A stretch of DNA of 47,788 nucleotides, from contig PMBF01000039.1 in assembly GCA_003152875.1 (NCBI GenBank), forward strand, positions 1 through 47,788, read 5' to 3'. The position numbers and the translations under genes are program-made. This stretch comes from Ignavibacteriota bacterium. GTDB lineage: Bacteria > Bacteroidota > Ignavibacteria > UBA10030 > UBA6906. Positions 25,867 through 35,528 of this stretch are shown piece after piece. The number at the start of each line of letters is the position of its first letter. The first letter of the stretch is position 1. The notes under the pieces were generated by a model. It made no database searches, was not told the DNA's origin, and was given only the letters and a program-made list of their open reading frames with translations.

Positions 25867-25895
25867 TTGCAATTCCCTGCAGAAATTGGTACCAT
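25867..25895 (+). promoter_or_regulatory. Candidate promoter for the GT9-waaA-larC operon
   Basis: TTGCAA-N17-TACCAT in the divergent MoxR/GT9 intergenic region. Confidence 0.35.
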
Positions 25896-27000
25896 TGATC
25901 TGCCGGTCGATAGGAACCCTACGATTAAAACATTAATCATCCGCTTTAGTTCCGTCGGCGATATCGTCCTCTCTTCCCCGCTGATCCGCGCACTCCGGCA
26001 CCGGTTTCCGGACATGCAGATGGATTTCCTCGTGAAGGACGCATACGCGGACCTCGTTCGGTGGAACCCGCACGTCACCCGTGTCATTGCATTCCCGCAG
26101 GGAGGCGCATTTCAGGACCTCGTCCGCCTGCGCCGCCGCATCCGCGCGGAGAGGTACGACGTCATCCTCGACATTCACGACAGTCTGCGGAGCCGCTTTC
26201 TCTGCGCCGGTGCACGATCGGTGCGCCGTGTGAACAAGCGTAAGATCGCGCGATTCGCGCTCATCCATTTCAAGGTGAACCTCTACGGGCTGTTCCGCGG
26301 GGCGCCCGGTGTGGCGGAACGATATCTTGAAACCGCCAGCGGCCTTGGCGTGGCGGGAGACGGCGGGGGTCCGGAGCTCTTCCTGCCTGCGGCCGCCGTT
26401 GAGCGAGCGCAGGAGCTCCTGGCGGCGGAGGGGCTCGAGGGAGAGACGGCGCTCCTGGGGATCTGCCCGTCCGCAAGGCACTTCACCAAGATGTGGCCCG
26501 AGGAGCGCTTCGCGGAAGCTGCGGCGCTATTTGCGGTGCGGCGGCATGCTTCCGTTGTGCTCTTCGGAGCGGACGACGAGGCCGAGCGATGCCGCTCCAT
26601 CGCCAGGGCGATAGCCCGGCGCTCGCCGGTGACGCGGACGGCAGTCCTGGCCGGGCACTCCTCTCTTCTCGAGAGCGCAGCCGTCATGGACCGGTGCGGT
26701 GTTGTCGTCACCAACGACACCGGTCTCATGCATTGTGCGACCGCGCGCGGACGTCCGGTGGTCGCCGTGTTCGGATCCACCGTTCGCCAGTTCGGCTTCT
26801 TCCCGATGGGCGCGGCGAGCCGAGTGGTTGAGCACCCTTCTCTTGCCTGCCGTCCGTGCACGCACATCGGCAGGGAGCAATGTCCCCTGGGGCATTTCCG
26901 CTGCATGACGGAGATCGTCCCTGAGGCAGTTGTGGACGCGGCATCGTCGGTGTGGGAGGCGGCATCGCCGGCCGCCGCTGTCACCCGGCGGAGTTCTTGA
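25867..27000 (+). CDS. Glycosyltransferase family 9 (heptosyltransferase-like)
   Basis: IKTLIIRFSSVGDIVLSSPLIRALRHRFPDMQMDFLVK, LGICPSARHFTKMWPEERFAEAA, VVTNDTGLMHCATARGRPVVAVFGST. True start uncertain (see findings); homology begins near 25924. Confidence 0.88.
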   Translation: MQFPAEIGTIDLPVDRNPTIKTLIIRFSSVGDIVLSSPLIRALRHRFPDMQMDFLVKDAYADLVRWNPHVTRVIAFPQGGAFQDLVRLRRRIRAERYDVILDIHDSLRSRFLCAGARSVRRVNKRKIARFALIHFKVNLYGLFRGAPGVAERYLETASGLGVAGDGGGPELFLPAAAVERAQELLAAEGLEGETALLGICPSARHFTKMWPEERFAEAAALFAVRRHASVVLFGADDEAERCRSIARAIARRSPVTRTAVLAGHSSLLESAAVMDRCGVVVTNDTGLMHCATARGRPVVAVFGSTVRQFGFFPMGAASRVVEHPSLACRPCTHIGREQCPLGHFRCMTEIVPEAVVDAASSVWEAASPAAAVTRRSS

Positions 27001-27005
27001 ACCGT

Positions 27006-28295
27006 ATGCGCCAGCTCTGGGAATTCCTCTATACAACTCTCTTCATTCCTCTCCTCTGGCTCGTGCTGCGCTTTCTCGGGCTTGTGAAGTCCAAGGTCCG
27101 CCGCGGCATCGAGGGGCGCCGAGGACTCTTCGGAGAGCTCGCCGGCCGCATGCAGAGAGTCCCCCCCGGTCCGAGGGTCTGGTTCCACGCCTCCTCGATG
27201 GGCGAATTCGAACAGGCCAAACCGATCATTGCCGAGCTCAAGCGCCGGGATCCGGGGGTACGGGTCATCGCGAGTTTCTTTTCGCCCTCAGGGTACGACC
27301 ATTCCCTCAAGTACGCGCTGGCCGATGTGATCACATATCTTCCCTTTGATACCGACCCCGGGGCGAGGAAGTTTCTCGACCTGGTCCGCCCCACCGCAGC
27401 CGTCCTGGTGCGCTACGACGTCTGGCCGAACATGATCTGGGAGCTGGAGCGGCGGGGGATTCCCATCCTGATCGCGAATGCGACCATGAGACAGTCGAGT
27501 CCCCGTTTTCTCCCCGTGATCCGGAATTTTCACCACCACCTGTACAGCAGCATCCGTGAGATCCTCACCGTATCGGAATCCGACGTTGAGGCGTTTCGCC
27601 GCTTCTCGCTCGGGCGCACGCACATTGAGGCCATCGGGGACACGCGCTTTGACCAGGTCTGCACGAGAAGCGCCGAGGCGCGCAAGCACCACCTGCTTCC
27701 CGAACAGGTCTCCCGAGGGAAAAAAGTCATCGTGATCGGGAGCAGCTGGCCCGAAGACGAGGAGGTGATCGTTCCCGCGTTCCTGGAGATGCGGGGTCCG
27801 GATACGCTCATGGTGATCGTCCCTCACGAGCCAACGCTAGAGCACCTCGAGGAGCTTGAGCGCCGGGTAAACGGGGATGTTCGGTCCCTGCGGTTTTCCG
27901 CACTGAACGAATACAACGGAGAGCCGGTGATCATCGTGGACAGCATCGGCATCCTGCTGATGCTGTATGCAGCGGGACACGTGGCGTATGTGGGCGGGAG
28001 CTTCAGGCAGGGGGTCCACAACGTCATTGAAGCAGCGGTGTACGGGATACCGGTGGTCTTCGGGCCGCGCCACAGGAATTCGCAGGAAGCGGTCCAGCTT
28101 GCAGAGCGCGGCGGGGCGTTCGTGGTCGACGGGAGCCAGGCCATGGCCTCGGTCCTGGAGAGGCTGCTCACCGATGACAGGGCGCGCATCGAAGCCGGGC
28201 ACCTCGCGGCGCAGTTTGTGGTTACGAACACAGGAGCAACCGGGCGTTTCCTCCAGCACCTGGACCCCTACCTGCATTCACCGGGAACACCATGA
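27006..28295 (+). CDS. waaA: 3-deoxy-D-manno-octulosonic acid transferase
   Basis: RVWFHASSMGEFEQAKPIIAELKRRDPGVRVIASFFSPSGYD, VRYDVWPNMIWELERRGIPILIANATM, HVAYVGGSFRQGVHNVIEAAVYGIPVVFGPRHRNSQEA. Confidence 0.94.
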   Translation: MRQLWEFLYTTLFIPLLWLVLRFLGLVKSKVRRGIEGRRGLFGELAGRMQRVPPGPRVWFHASSMGEFEQAKPIIAELKRRDPGVRVIASFFSPSGYDHSLKYALADVITYLPFDTDPGARKFLDLVRPTAAVLVRYDVWPNMIWELERRGIPILIANATMRQSSPRFLPVIRNFHHHLYSSIREILTVSESDVEAFRRFSLGRTHIEAIGDTRFDQVCTRSAEARKHHLLPEQVSRGKKVIVIGSSWPEDEEVIVPAFLEMRGPDTLMVIVPHEPTLEHLEELERRVNGDVRSLRFSALNEYNGEPVIIVDSIGILLMLYAAGHVAYVGGSFRQGVHNVIEAAVYGIPVVFGPRHRNSQEAVQLAERGGAFVVDGSQAMASVLERLLTDDRARIEAGHLAAQFVVTNTGATGRFLQHLDPYLHSPGTP

Positions 28296-29470
28296 AGATT
28301 GCCCTGCTTGACACGGTCGGCGGGATCGCCGGCGACATGACCATGGCTGCCCTGGTGGGGGCCGGGATGCCCTTCGAGACGCTGAAGACCGAGCTGGGCA
28401 GGCTTCCTCTCGGGGGGTTCCATCTGGAGATGACGCACGTCCGGCGAAGCGCGATCGACGCGGTCCACATCGACGTGGTCGTCACCGACCAGCCCCACTA
28501 CCATCGCCACCTGAAAGATATTCTCGACATCATCGGGCACGCCCAGCTGAGCGAAGGCGTGCGCAACCGGGCGACGCAGGTGTTCAGGGTCATCGCCGAG
28601 GCCGAGGCGGCGGTTCACAACACCACCGCCGAAGATATCCACTTTCACGAGGTGGGAGCTCTCGATTCCATCGTGGACATCGTGGGCACGGCCGTGTGTC
28701 TCGACACTCTGGGGATCGAGGCGGTGTACTCCTCCCCGGTGAAGCTGGGCAGCGGCGGGCTCATCACCACGCAGCACGGCGTGATGCCGACTCCCGCGCC
28801 GGCGGTGCTTGAGATCCTGAAAGGCTATCCCGTTGTGCTGACGTCGATCCCCCATGAGCTGACCACCCCTACGGGGGCGGCAATCGTGAAGGCCCTTTCC
28901 CGCGGGGTATTGCGGGACGAGCGGATTCGCGTGGAGGCGATCGGCTACGGGGCCGGGACAAAGGAATTCCGGGAGATCCCAAACCTTCTGCGTGCCGTGA
29001 TCGGAGAGCTGGAAGGGGAAACGGAGGAGGAAGAGGTGGTGAGCGTCGAAACCAACATCGACGACATGAACCCGCAGCTCTACCCTCACCTCATCGACCG
29101 GCTGCTGGCTGCCGGAGCCCACGATGCATACCTGATCCCCGTCATCATGAAGAAGGGGCGTCCCGGCATCATCGTCTCCGTGATCGTCAACCGTTCCGGA
29201 CTCGACGCGGTGGCCGGGTGTCTCTTCCGCGAAACCCCGACCATCGGACTTCGCATCCATGAGACCGGACGGAGGAAGCTTCCCCGGCGGAACCTGACCA
29301 TGGCGACCTCATTCGGCGCCGTGCTGGCGAAGGCCGTGCTCCGCGACGGGCGCGAGGTGATCACGGCTGAATTCGAAGAGTGCAAACGGATCGCACTCGA
29401 GCACAACCTCCCGGTCCTCGAGGTGATGCGGCAGCTGGAGAAGGAGCTCGGGAGGGGACGCAGCGGCTGA
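28292..29470 (+). CDS. larC: LarC-family (DUF111) nickel-pincer cofactor nickel insertase
   Basis: KIALLDTVGGIAGDMTMAAL, HFHEVGALDSIVDIVGTA, ELTTPTGAAIVKAL, VETNIDDMNPQLYPHLIDRLLAAGAHDAYLIPVIMKKGRPG. Single uninterrupted ORF; ATGA overlap with waaA. Confidence 0.92.
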   Translation: MKIALLDTVGGIAGDMTMAALVGAGMPFETLKTELGRLPLGGFHLEMTHVRRSAIDAVHIDVVVTDQPHYHRHLKDILDIIGHAQLSEGVRNRATQVFRVIAEAEAAVHNTTAEDIHFHEVGALDSIVDIVGTAVCLDTLGIEAVYSSPVKLGSGGLITTQHGVMPTPAPAVLEILKGYPVVLTSIPHELTTPTGAAIVKALSRGVLRDERIRVEAIGYGAGTKEFREIPNLLRAVIGELEGETEEEEVVSVETNIDDMNPQLYPHLIDRLLAAGAHDAYLIPVIMKKGRPGIIVSVIVNRSGLDAVAGCLFRETPTIGLRIHETGRRKLPRRNLTMATSFGAVLAKAVLRDGREVITAEFEECKRIALEHNLPVLEVMRQLEKELGRGRSG

Positions 29471-29597: not shown

Positions 29598-29700
29598 CGG
29601 GTACGAGTGCCGCCGGGATTCTTATTGGGGGGGAATGCCTTTGCTCATTCGGCACTGCGCTTCCGGAATGAGTCGAGCGGATACAGGAAAGGACCATGCC

Positions 29701-31359
29701 ATGAATCTCTCCCGCCTTGCAGGAATTACTCTTGTGGCAGTACTGTTCTTCATTCCGGCATGCACAACGCAAACACCCATGGACACACAGCTCGCTTCCA
29801 GCATCAAGCGGTTCGCTCCGACCGTCATCACGGCCGACACCTCAAGACTTTCGGCGGGAAACAAAGCTGCGCTGAAGAAGCTCATCGCCGCAGCCCGGCT
29901 CATGGATTCGCTCTATCTCCGGCAGACGTGGAGCGGCACCATGGAGGTCATGAAAGCACTGGAAGCGGATACCACGCTTGAAGGAAGGGAAACCCTGAGG
30001 TACTTCCGGATCAACATGGGTCCATGGTCCGGTCTGGACCACGACTCGGCCTTCGTGAAGGGGGTTCCGCCGAGGCCGCCGCAGGCCACCTTTTACCCCG
30101 ATGACATGAGGAAGGAGGAGTTCACCGAGTGGGCTGCGAAGCTTCCGAATTCCGAGAAGGAGAAGGCGACCGGATTCTTCTACGTCATCCGTCGTGATTC
30201 GGCCAAGAAGCTGTATGCCGTTACCTACAGCACCGAATACCGCGACCTCCTCGGACCCGCGGCCGGCCTGCTCCGCGAAGCGGCGTCGCTGACCGATGAT
30301 CCCTCCCTGAAGGCCTTTTTGGAAAAGCGCGCCGACGCCTTCCTGAGCAATGACTATTACGATTCCGACCTCGCGTGGATGGATCTCGACAGCCCGATCG
30401 ATGTGACGATCGGCCCGTACGAATCCTACATGGACCGCCTTTTCAATTACAAGGCGGCGTTCGAGGCATACATCAGCCTCCGGGATGACGCGGAAACTGC
30501 AAGACTCGCGCATTTCGCGGGGAGGCTTCAGGAGATCGAGGACCACCTTCCGATTGATCCCGCCTTCCGCAACCCGAAGCTGGGCGCACTGGCTCCCGTC
30601 CGCGTGGTCGACGAAGTCGCCATCGGCGGCGAGGCGCTGGCGGGCGTCCAAGCGGCCGCGTACAATCTCCCCAACGACGAGCGCATCGTCAAGGAAAAGG
30701 GGAGCAAAAGGGTACTGATGAAGAACGTTCAGGAGGCGAAGTTCACGCTGATCCTGAAACCGATCGCGGGGGTGGTGCTGGCCCCTGCCCAGCAGCCGCT
30801 GGTAGCCTTCGACCCGTTTTTCACGCACATCCTCGCCCATGAGCTCATGCACGGACTCGGCCCGCATAACATCACCCTGGCGGGCAGGAAGACGACCGTG
30901 AGGCATGAATTGAAGGAGCTCTATTCTGCGTTTGAGGAAGCGAAGGCCGACATTTCGGGGCTCTTCGCGCTTCAGTATCTGATCGATGCCGGCGCACTGG
31001 ACAAGACCCTGGAACAGCAGATGTACGTGACGTTCCTCACCGGGGTCTTCCGATCCGTCCGCTTCGGCACGAACGAAGCTCACAGCCGCGGAATGGCGAT
31101 GCAGTTCAACTACCTGTCGGACGAGGGCGCCTATGTGTACGACGAACAGGCGGGCACCTACAGTGTAGACATCGCGAAGATGAAGGGGGCCGTTCGGAAA
31201 CTGACGGGGGAGATCATGACGGTCCAGGCCACCGGAGATTACGGCGCGGCAAAAAGGATGCTCGGCATGGGGGTGATCCGTCCGCCCATGCAGCGCGTGC
31301 TGGACAGGCTCTCGGCCATCCCGGTGGATATCGCACCGGAGTTCCCGCTCGCGGAATAG
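29701..31359 (+). CDS. Lipoprotein-like zinc metallopeptidase, M49 (dipeptidyl peptidase III-like) family
   Basis: Signal/lipobox VLFFIPAC; HILAHELMHGLGPHNITL and ELYSAFEEAKADISGLFAL, consistent with a metal-binding helix and a downstream Glu ligand. Confidence 0.8.
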   Translation: MNLSRLAGITLVAVLFFIPACTTQTPMDTQLASSIKRFAPTVITADTSRLSAGNKAALKKLIAAARLMDSLYLRQTWSGTMEVMKALEADTTLEGRETLRYFRINMGPWSGLDHDSAFVKGVPPRPPQATFYPDDMRKEEFTEWAAKLPNSEKEKATGFFYVIRRDSAKKLYAVTYSTEYRDLLGPAAGLLREAASLTDDPSLKAFLEKRADAFLSNDYYDSDLAWMDLDSPIDVTIGPYESYMDRLFNYKAAFEAYISLRDDAETARLAHFAGRLQEIEDHLPIDPAFRNPKLGALAPVRVVDEVAIGGEALAGVQAAAYNLPNDERIVKEKGSKRVLMKNVQEAKFTLILKPIAGVVLAPAQQPLVAFDPFFTHILAHELMHGLGPHNITLAGRKTTVRHELKELYSAFEEAKADISGLFALQYLIDAGALDKTLEQQMYVTFLTGVFRSVRFGTNEAHSRGMAMQFNYLSDEGAYVYDEQAGTYSVDIAKMKGAVRKLTGEIMTVQATGDYGAAKRMLGMGVIRPPMQRVLDRLSAIPVDIAPEFPLAE

Positions 31360-31547: not shown

Positions 31548-32321
31548 ATGACCGGCTTGAACGGCAGCATTGTCTGCATCACGGGTGCCAGTGCAGGCAT
31601 CGGCGCGGCATGCGCAACAGAGTTCGCAAAACAGGGAGCGGCATTGCTTCTCTCTGCGCGTCGCAAGGATCGGGTCGACGAGCTTGCACGCACCCTTCGC
31701 ACCAAGCACGGGGTTCGCGTCCATACCGGCCGGCTCGATGTCCGGAGCCTGCCCGAGGTAGAGAAGTTTTTCGGCTCGCTGCCGGCCGAGTGGCGGGAGA
31801 TCGACATCCTGGTCAATAACGCCGGATTAAGCCGGGGGCTCGAAAGGCTTCAGGAGGGCAAGCCGGCCGACTGGGAGGAGATGATCGACACCAACATCAA
31901 GGGGCTGCTCTACGTGACCCGGACCGTACTTCCGGGGATGGTGGAACGCAACCGCGGGCACGTCATCAATATCGGCTCGATCGCCGGCCATCAGGTGTAT
32001 CCCGCAGGGAATGTCTACTGCGCGACCAAGCATGCCGAGCGCGCATTGAACGAGGGGATGAAGATGGACCTCCAGGGCACAGCCGTGAGGGTCACCAGCA
32101 TCGACCCGGGGCTGGTGGAGACCGAATTCAGCGTGGTCCGGTTCCATGGAGATGCGGAGCGGGCATCGCGGACCTATGCCAACATGACCCCGCTTCGACC
32201 GGAAGACATCGCCGATCTGGCGGTCTTCTGTGCCACGCGTCCACCTCACGTGAATATCCTTCAGGCGGTCATCATGCCGACGGCACAGGCGTCCGTCCAT
32301 CACGTCCACAGGTCCCCATGA
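31548..32321 (+). CDS. Short-chain dehydrogenase/reductase (YdfG-like classical SDR)
   Basis: VCITGASAGIGAACATEFAKQGAALLLSARR, DILVNNAGLSRG, NIGSIAGHQVYPAGNVYCATKHAERAL. Confidence 0.92.
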   Translation: MTGLNGSIVCITGASAGIGAACATEFAKQGAALLLSARRKDRVDELARTLRTKHGVRVHTGRLDVRSLPEVEKFFGSLPAEWREIDILVNNAGLSRGLERLQEGKPADWEEMIDTNIKGLLYVTRTVLPGMVERNRGHVINIGSIAGHQVYPAGNVYCATKHAERALNEGMKMDLQGTAVRVTSIDPGLVETEFSVVRFHGDAERASRTYANMTPLRPEDIADLAVFCATRPPHVNILQAVIMPTAQASVHHVHRSP

Positions 32322-32584
32322 CGGACCAGCATCTGTTCACCGAAGACAATATCGACCGGCAGCTGGAATCGGCACCCTTCACGCTCGGCTACTACACCCT
32401 CCATTTCTACACGGAACGGGGGAAACCGGTGAACAGGGTGACCCCGGCGATCGAGGAATTCTATCTCTATCCGTCGGGCGGGACGCTGCGTGACAAGACG
32501 TTCAACATTGTCTTTTATAACTCCCGGTTTGACACCTACAGAGGATTCAAGCCTCCCCATCTTTCGCGATCAAAAACCGGCTGA
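32318..32584 (+). CDS. Small uncharacterised protein (88 aa)
   Basis: ATGA overlap with the upstream SDR, tightly packed before murB; protein-like composition (FTLGYYTLHFYTERGKPVNRVTPAIEEFYLYPSGG). Confidence 0.7.
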   Translation: MTDQHLFTEDNIDRQLESAPFTLGYYTLHFYTERGKPVNRVTPAIEEFYLYPSGGTLRDKTFNIVFYNSRFDTYRGFKPPHLSRSKTG

Positions 32585-32590
32585 TTGCAG

Positions 32591-33664
32591 ATGCATGGAC
32601 ATCTCCCCCACATTCAGGAATTTCTTCCCCTTGCCCCGTACACCACGCTGGGACTCGGGGGTGCGGCGCGGTACTTCGCCGCATGCCGGACCGATGCCGA
32701 ACTGCGGGACGGGATCGCGCATGCCCGCGAACGGGGCCTTCCCTTGCTGATTCTGGGCGGGGGGAGCAATCTGGTGATTGCCGACGAGGGCTTTGACGGA
32801 CTTGTGTTGAAGCTCGAGACCCGGGGGACGAGCCGGGAAGACGCGCCCGGGGGGGTACGTCTGACTGTTGCGGCCGGCGAAGCATGGGACGAATTCGTGC
32901 GCTTGTCGGTGGAGCAGGGACTGAGCGGTGTGGAATGCCTGTCGGGCATTCCCGGATCCGTGGGGGCGACACCGATCCAGAATGTGGGCGCATACGGTCA
33001 GGAGGTCTCCCAGACCATCGCGGCGGTCGCCGCGACCGACATCCGGACCGGCGAAAGCCGCAGCTTTCTCAACGCCGAATGCCGCTTCGGTTACCGGCAG
33101 AGCAGGTTCAAGCTTGAGGATGCCGGCCGGTATGCCGTAACGGGCGTCACCTTTATGCTACAGGAGGACGGGCGCCCGCAGATCCGGTACCCCGAGCTCC
33201 AGAAGAACGTGGCCTCGACCGTGGATCTCGAAGCACTCTCCCCGGGAGCGCCGGCCCTGCAGGCAGTCAGGGAGTGCGTGCTCGCCCTGCGGCGGAAAAA
33301 ATCGATGGTCCTTGACCCTTCCGACCCCAACACAAAGTCTGCGGGTTCGTTCTTCACGAACCCGGTGGTTTCGTGCGAGGCCGCCGACCGGCTTCGCGCG
33401 CGCCATGCCGGCCTCCCCTCGTATCCCTCCGGCACCGGGGTGAAGCTGCCGGCAGCATGGCTCGTGGAACACGCAGGGTTCCCGAAGGGGTATCGTTACG
33501 GCGGAGCCGCTATTTCGGAGAACCACTCTCTTGCGCTCGTAAACCGGGGCACGACAACCGCCGAACTTCTCTCCCTGGCGCGAAGGATCCAGGATGCCGT
33601 GCAGGAGCAATTCGGGATACGGCTGGAACGGGAACCGGTGGTGATCGGGAGTACCTCCGCATGA
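32591..33664 (+). CDS. murB: UDP-N-acetylenolpyruvoylglucosamine reductase
   Basis: APYTTLGLGGAARYFA, LPLLILGGGSNLVIADEGFDGLVLKL, GVECLSGIPGSVGATPIQNVGAYGQEV, PNTKSAGSFFTNPVVS, LVNRGTTTAELLSLA. Confidence 0.95.
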   Translation: MHGHLPHIQEFLPLAPYTTLGLGGAARYFAACRTDAELRDGIAHARERGLPLLILGGGSNLVIADEGFDGLVLKLETRGTSREDAPGGVRLTVAAGEAWDEFVRLSVEQGLSGVECLSGIPGSVGATPIQNVGAYGQEVSQTIAAVAATDIRTGESRSFLNAECRFGYRQSRFKLEDAGRYAVTGVTFMLQEDGRPQIRYPELQKNVASTVDLEALSPGAPALQAVRECVLALRRKKSMVLDPSDPNTKSAGSFFTNPVVSCEAADRLRARHAGLPSYPSGTGVKLPAAWLVEHAGFPKGYRYGGAAISENHSLALVNRGTTTAELLSLARRIQDAVQEQFGIRLEREPVVIGSTSA

Positions 33665-34305
33665 CTCCGGTGTTTATCTTTGACTACGGAAACGTGCTTT
33701 CTGTCGTCGACACGGGCATCTTCGGGCGAAAGGTCCTCCGGTATGCTGGCTGCTCATTCGAGGAGCTGCGTGAGCGGCATGGACGGACCCGCGAGCTGGT
33801 CATCGCCTACGAGTCCGGCTCGATGGACACGGATGCATTCATCCCCGCATTCATGGAGAAGCTCGGCCTCAGGATGTCGCGCGAGGAGTTCATCGCAGCC
33901 TGGTCGGATTTCTTCATTCCCATTCCTTACACGCGCACTCTGGTGCGGGCGGTCAAGCCTTACTGCACGGTGGCGCTGCTTTCGAACACCAACCCGCTCC
34001 ATTACGAACACGTGATCCGCCCCACGGACGTCTTCCCGCTGTTCGATGCTGTCACGCTCTCGTACGAGGCCGGAGCCATGAAACCTGCGCCGGTGATCTA
34101 TCACGACATGCTGGAGAAGCTCAAAGTACGGACCGGCGATTGTCTCTTTATCGACGATCTCCGCGAGAATGTGGAGGCGGCCAGAGCGGTCGGGATGCAG
34201 GCCCTGCTTTTCACGACGCCGGAAGAATTCCACGAGAAGCTTCTCGCCCTTCCCCTCGACCCTGTGTTGAACAGAGCACTGAAGGACATTCGAACACACA
34301 CTTGA
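33661..34305 (+). CDS. HAD-superfamily hydrolase
   Basis: PVFIFDYGNVLSVVD, VALLSNTNPLHYE, GAMKPAPVIYHDMLEKL, DCLFIDDLRENVEAARAVGMQALLF. Start ATG 33661 overlaps the murB stop (ATGA). Confidence 0.9.
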   Translation: MTPVFIFDYGNVLSVVDTGIFGRKVLRYAGCSFEELRERHGRTRELVIAYESGSMDTDAFIPAFMEKLGLRMSREEFIAAWSDFFIPIPYTRTLVRAVKPYCTVALLSNTNPLHYEHVIRPTDVFPLFDAVTLSYEAGAMKPAPVIYHDMLEKLKVRTGDCLFIDDLRENVEAARAVGMQALLFTTPEEFHEKLLALPLDPVLNRALKDIRTHT

Positions 34306-34312
34306 GAATCCC

Positions 34313-34687
34313 ATGCTCACACCCACACATGTACGATCAGCCACCCGCATCCACGCGGCCGGGAGCAAACCCAAGACCATCGAAGAATTCGTCGGCAGGG
34401 TCAACACCGGCACGGAAGAGGTGAGTGTCGCCCGCATGCAGAGTCCGGAGGGATGGGTGGAACCGGGGCAGAAGCCGGACTTCGAAGAGTACACCATCGT
34501 CCTCCGCGGCACGCTGCATGTTGAGTTCCGCGGCGGAAGCATCGATGTCCACGCCGGTCAGGCGGTCATTTCCCACAAAGGGGAATGGGTGAAGTACAGC
34601 TCTCCCTATGAAGGAGGAGCTGACTACATCGCCGTCTGTGCTCCGGCTTTTTCGCCCGGCACGGTGCATCGTGAGGTGAATCCCTGA
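34313..34687 (+). CDS. Cupin-domain protein
   Basis: KPDFEEYTIVLRGTLHVEFRGGSIDVHAGQAVISHKGEWVKYSSPYEGGADYIAVCAPAFSP: small double-stranded beta-helix pattern. Confidence 0.8.
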   Translation: MLTPTHVRSATRIHAAGSKPKTIEEFVGRVNTGTEEVSVARMQSPEGWVEPGQKPDFEEYTIVLRGTLHVEFRGGSIDVHAGQAVISHKGEWVKYSSPYEGGADYIAVCAPAFSPGTVHREVNP

Positions 34688-34712
34688 AGATATACCGGTT
34701 GCTGGAGGCTTC

Positions 34713-35528
34713 GTGAACCTAAGGTGTTCGACTGCAGTCCTGCGAGCGGCAGTCGTGCTGGCTCTCGCTCCGCACCTTTCCCCTGCTCAGTCCGACAGTG
34801 TCGCCGATTTGAGCCGCTTCTTCGGCAGGTTTCAGGGGGCGTTCGTCGCCTATGACACCCGCACGCATGTGACTCTCCGGCACAATCCCGGACTGTGTGC
34901 GCGCCAATTTTCTCCCGCATCGACGTTCAAGATTCCGAACTCCCTGATCGGGCTCGAGTCGGGGGTAATCAGGGACCAGCATTTTGTGATTCCCTGGGAC
35001 AGCGTGCGGCGCCCGGTCGAGGCCTGGAACCGGGACCACGACCTGGCTTCCGCCATCGCCTTCAGCGTTGTGCCGTACTATCAGGAGCTGGCTCGCAGGG
35101 TCGGGCCGGAGCGGATGCAGCACTATCTCGACACGCTCGGCTACGGGAACCGGGACATCTCGGGCGGCATCGACCGGTTCTGGCTGGGCAGATCGCTCCT
35201 CATCTCGCCCGACGAACAGGTGGCCTTCCTCCTCAGACTGCGCGCTGACGCAGTACCGTTTTCACGCCGTTCCATTGACATCGTGAAGGAAATCCTCATC
35301 GGGGAATCAAACGATCGCTGGACGCTCCGGGCCAAGACCGGGATGGCCACACTGGATTCCAACCGTGCCGTCGGCTGGTATGTCGGATGGGTGGAGCGAG
35401 GTGACGGAGCCGTCATTTTCGCCGCCTGCATCCCGACGAAACGTGCCAAGGAGGATGGAGAGGCGATCTTCAATCAACGCAAACCCATCGCCATTGCGAT
35501 CCTGAAAGCGCTCGGCGTCATTGATTAG
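34713..35528 (+). CDS. Class D (OXA-type) beta-lactamase, divergent
   Basis: All class D landmarks by eye: STFK (ASTFKIPNSLIGLESG), SxV (FSVVPYYQELARRVG), YGN (LGYGNRDISGG), FWLG..LLISPDEQVAFL, KTG (LRAKTGMA), WYVGWVERG; signal peptide; GTG start preceded by GGAGG. Confidence 0.92.
   Translation: MNLRCSTAVLRAAVVLALAPHLSPAQSDSVADLSRFFGRFQGAFVAYDTRTHVTLRHNPGLCARQFSPASTFKIPNSLIGLESGVIRDQHFVIPWDSVRRPVEAWNRDHDLASAIAFSVVPYYQELARRVGPERMQHYLDTLGYGNRDISGGIDRFWLGRSLLISPDEQVAFLLRLRADAVPFSRRSIDIVKEILIGESNDRWTLRAKTGMATLDSNRAVGWYVGWVERGDGAVIFAACIPTKRAKEDGEAIFNQRKPIAIAILKALGVID

Follow-up and report, generated by a model that had tools for sequence, protein, structure and literature searches.

A predicted class D beta-lactamase gene, apparently long settled, in a murB-containing housekeeping operon of uncultured Ignavibacteria

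Class D beta-lactamases need not be mobile: BlaA of Shewanella (OXA-54) is chromosomal and intrinsic (PMC3610667), and many class D-related proteins from a range of phyla are already on record (Brandt et al. 2017, PMC5324141). The enzyme considered here is encoded on positions 1 to 47,788 of contig PMBF01000039.1 of an Ignavibacteriota bacterium (GCA_003152875.1), and this whole stretch of 47,788 nucleotides is referred to as the window. It has the fold and all catalytic motifs in common with Shewanella BlaA and the OXA-48 group, at about 40% identity, but differs from that group in the β5-β6 loop (MATLDSNR versus YSTRIEPK in OXA-48) and in gene context, and its substrate range is not predictable. 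In the literature searched, the murB-operon position that sets it apart from described environmental class D enzymes is unreported, as is any other link between murB and an OXA gene.

The sequence-only reading had placed SDR, 88-amino-acid (aa) protein (p88), murB, HAD, cupin, and OXA genes on one strand, with ATGA overlaps. These open reading frames (ORFs) were recovered as described, and Pfam and NCBIfam agree with the assignment of the SDR, MurB, HAD, and transpeptidase/class D folds (Table 1). The same-strand run is longer than first noted, beginning at a heptosyltransferase gene followed by genes for KdtA, LarC, and an M49 peptidase. Besides the overlaps, the gaps from the SDR gene to the beta-lactamase gene span 0 to 25 nt, and GGAGG lies four bases 5' of the beta-lactamase start codon. 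No terminator was found between cupin and OXA, nor any sigma-70-like promoter in a scan for promoters of the E. coli type, and the gene spacing suggests that murB and the beta-lactamase gene are co-transcribed. On the 3' side, a methyltransferase gene follows the beta-lactamase gene after 229 nt. The SDR scores 264 bits against the YdfG-like model NF007829, below the model cut-off of 411, and the cupin-like protein scores 23.7 bits against PF07883, just under the Pfam cut-off of 27.2. The 88-aa protein has no match in Pfam, NCBIfam, or PHROGs, and its fold prediction is unusable (pLDDT 44); it is 65 to 78% identical in ten relatives and more conserved than murB.

Table 1. Genes of the same-strand run in the window (PMBF01000039.1)
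Feature	Coordinates	Strand	Evidence and remarks
Heptosyltransferase (GT9), 5' end of run	25867..27000	+	Pfam PF01075, 3.5e-32
kdtA/waaA, Kdo transferase	26952..28295	+	Pfam PF04413, 2.8e-44
larC-like, nickel insertion protein	28292..29470	+	Pfam PF01969, 1.4e-132; kept in relatives
M49 (dipeptidyl-peptidase III type) peptidase	29635..31359	+	Pfam PF03571, 5.3e-8
SDR oxidoreductase, YdfG-like	31548..32321	+	Pfam PF00106; NCBIfam NF007829
88-aa conserved protein (p88), function unassigned	32318..32584	+	ATGA overlap with SDR gene
murB, long form	32585..33664	+	Start TTG, or ATG at 32591; NCBIfam NF010478
HAD-IA phosphatase	33661..34305	+	Pfam PF00702; NCBIfam TIGR01509, above cut-off; ATGA overlap with murB
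Small cupin-like protein	34313..34687	+	7-nt gap after HAD gene; Pfam PF07883
Predicted class D (OXA-type) serine beta-lactamase	34713..35528	+	25-nt gap after cupin gene; start GTG

By motif and predicted fold, the last product, a single domain of 271 aa, is a class D beta-lactamase. The active-site stretch P68-A-S70-T-F-K73 is present, its P, S, and K being invariant in an alignment with OXA-48, OXA-10, OXA-2, and OXA-23, and so are all other class D motifs (S118-V-V120, Y144-G-N146, W157, and K208-T-G210). In class D enzymes these residues hold and use the carboxylated lysine, and with the set complete the window enzyme would be expected to hydrolyze beta-lactams. The NCBIfam class D model (NF012161) is still the top-scoring family at 242.4 bits, slightly below its cut-off of 250, which can be expected in a divergent member; the assignment is kept because motifs and fold both indicate class D. 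The predicted structure (pLDDT 92.6) best matches OXA-232, OXA-181, and the OXA-48 group, and all 50 PDB matches listed for it are class D enzymes. A hydrophobic, signal-peptide-like stretch at the N terminus, read by eye, points to export to the periplasm. The BlaR1 model also matches (196 bits), as it might for a beta-lactam sensor akin to the BlaR1 sensor domain, but such a role is barely conceivable: the class D model scores higher (242 bits), position 120 is Val, the single-domain protein has no membrane zinc-metalloprotease domain, and no blaI-like neighbor was seen. The enzyme might instead act as a carboxypeptidase or endopeptidase on peptidoglycan rather than on beta-lactams, as class D enzymes have the penicillin-binding transpeptidase fold and the operon includes murB and Kdo/heptose transferase genes. 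This is nevertheless highly improbable, given that the residues typical of class D near the carboxylated lysine are retained (K73, V120, and W157), that every one of the closest solved structures is a beta-lactamase, and that the enzyme is absent from most relatives.

Comparison across 21 genomes of the family indicates that the beta-lactamase gene is an addition to a conserved operon. The order larC-M49-SDR-p88-murB-HAD-cupin-priA occurs, whole or in part, without an adjoining beta-lactamase gene in G004, G005, G007-G010, G013-G016, and G020, and its recurrence in at least 11 relatives, some cut by contig ends, indicates that the arrangement is not due to chance. Departures from it are the absence of p88 in G004 and G005 and of the HAD gene in G020. 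A gene resembling kdtA stands before larC in relatives, the M49 peptidase is 60 to 70% identical to its copies in G006 and G012, and the cupin-like protein is 60 to 68% identical across relatives. In eight relatives, cupin directly precedes priA, within about 215 nt, with no OXA gene between them. An OXA gene stands directly 3' of cupin in the window, G006, and G012 only, which represent three genera, with cupin-OXA gaps of 25 nt, about 8 nt, and about 100 to 120 nt, respectively. G006 has the order cupin-OXA-priA, and in G012 OXA and priA are separated by an extra ORF (L154:1734-2168), CBS-domain-like by eye. The window's genome carries priA on a different contig, which leaves the beta-lactamase gene as the last of its run. 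Judged by its gene content, the operon combines housekeeping genes of mixed function and is not a dedicated peptidoglycan unit: its genes are not mostly those of peptidoglycan metabolism, and the unit with OXA is not conserved whole. The suggestion that co-transcription with murB implies a peptidoglycan role for the enzyme is not supported by this comparison, as the operon is mixed and conserved without OXA in eleven relatives and OXA genes elsewhere in the phylum are not near murB.

A tree of 84 class D sequences unites the OXAs of the window, G006, and G012 in one clade (100/98). Pairwise identities among the three genomes are 49 to 61% for OXA, 53 to 59% for MurB, and 40 to 54% for HAD, and the GC3 of the OXA gene is 0.749, compared with 0.71 to 0.79 in its neighbors. 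With one clade, neighbor-like divergence, and host-like GC, a single old insertion is the simplest explanation. A tree of 138 OXA sequences joined the window enzyme to Bradyrhizobium, a placement that carried a long-branch warning and was replaced by the three-genus clade when that group was removed. No convincing insertion scar was found around the OXA gene, where repeats are mostly short imperfect pairs, with one exact 14-nt inverted pair (34189/35424). In the operon tree, the window groups with G012, and G006 groups with OXA-less genera; branching within the three-member OXA clade is poorly supported (100/59 on a short branch). Set against the distribution of OXA, the operon tree points to several losses or to exchange of operon ends between lineages, and under either the beta-lactamase gene is dispensable.

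OXA genes are detectable in 7/21 family genomes and lie near murB in four; those of G013, G011, and G020 differ in both ancestry and location. Such patchiness would suit a recently acquired mobile resistance gene, an origin to which we give very little credence for the window gene, as its GC is host-like, the copies at this one locus have diverged so far within a single clade, and no mobile element was found (the scan of 30 window ORFs yielded neither a transposase nor an integrase). In addition, no near-identical mobile copies were found: plasmid-borne relatives are all <60% identical to the window OXA, the best among the matches listed being 44%. The earlier view of the gene as chromosomal, native, operon embedded, and without a mobile element nearby is upheld on these grounds. 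Its sporadic presence in relatives, which the sequence-only reading had named together with a separate promoter as signs of independent acquisition, is indeed found, but no separate promoter was seen, and recent independent acquisition is disfavored, as the three copies appear to be inherited.

A second pairing of murB and OXA occurs in G018, where an OXA gene lies about 59 nt behind murB (L160:3609-5567) in a different context, the rest of the operon being absent. Its product has a different ancestry and groups with enzymes of another family of the same order; an AU test (p 0.014) rejects its belonging to the three-enzyme clade and to the same insertion. Outside the family, murB-OXA neighbors were found in 0/132 OXA-bearing genomes (57 loci plus 75 further genomes with a MurB match), checked by flanks or coordinates, where contig ends could hide a few neighbors. 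The nearest OXA and murB on one contig outside the family are 96 kb apart, and the remaining top loci in the genome collection lack the pairing too. Two independent joins, compared with none outside the family, are suggestive, although they are just two events spotted post hoc, and the G018 pairing keeps a weak form of a functional link alive. In its full form, such a link would mean that murB and OXA were joined twice in the family and kept together by selection for joint expression, as a survival operon in which coupling wall-precursor supply to beta-lactam removal pays under wall stress. This is unlikely, since OXA-less murB operons are the majority in the family and genes for penicillin-binding proteins (PBPs), recycling, and regulation are all absent from the unit.

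The operon murB bears on how the beta-lactamase gene may be expressed. Its product matches the known long form of MurB over its full length (NF010478, 391 bits against a cut-off of 231), and its closest solved chain, 5jzx, is likewise an E. coli-type MurB. The motifs NVGAYG, YRQS, GSFFTNP, and EREPV are complete, FAD-binding (PF01565) and MurB_C (PF02873) domains are found, and the catalytic Ser, Tyr-Arg, and Glu are present. Unlike the known long form, its gene is not part of the dcw cluster. That cluster holds a second MurB gene of the window's genome, between murC and ftsQ (L302:1264-2181, G000:C1); this copy is degenerate, with the catalytic Ser replaced by Ala and no YR, NAGAYG, or Glu motif left. 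The dcw reading covered the family genomes other than G013, G016, and G020. Several motifs are lost in each of the dcw MurBs of G012, G018, and G011, which like that of the window's genome are still nearly full length, a relic of 174 to 176 residues remains in G001-G003, and murC adjoins ftsQ without murB in G004-G010, G014, G015, G017, and G019. In the sister family, the catalytic Ser, YR, and Glu are intact in 10/10 dcw copies read. Across the family genomes covered, dcw murB thus appears to decay stepwise (degenerate, relic, absent; L286-L303) where a long-form murB sits in another operon. As the dcw copy is degenerate, the operon murB is the only competent-looking copy in the window's genome, and the operon carrying the beta-lactamase gene is probably essential. 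Residence in a probably essential operon would give the beta-lactamase steady expression, with no need for a peptidoglycan function.

It is likely, in our judgment, that the locus carries an ordinary, catalytically complete OXA, which entered a housekeeping operon in one old insertion and provides intrinsic resistance by read-through expression. In an ancestor of the three genera, a single event would have placed this gene alone between cupin and priA in a conserved kdtA-larC-M49-SDR-p88-murB-HAD-cupin-priA operon, and descendant lineages would then have inherited or lost it. Supplied by read-through transcription of the operon and exported to the periplasm, the enzyme would hydrolyze beta-lactams steadily and confer intrinsic resistance, from which the host presumably benefits. 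An OXA-type gene would thus have been settled in a housekeeping operon of this uncultured Ignavibacteria lineage long enough for identities to reach about 50%, the pattern of an intrinsic rather than a mobile resistance gene. The stepwise decay of an essential dcw gene in the presence of a second MurB may have wider interest.
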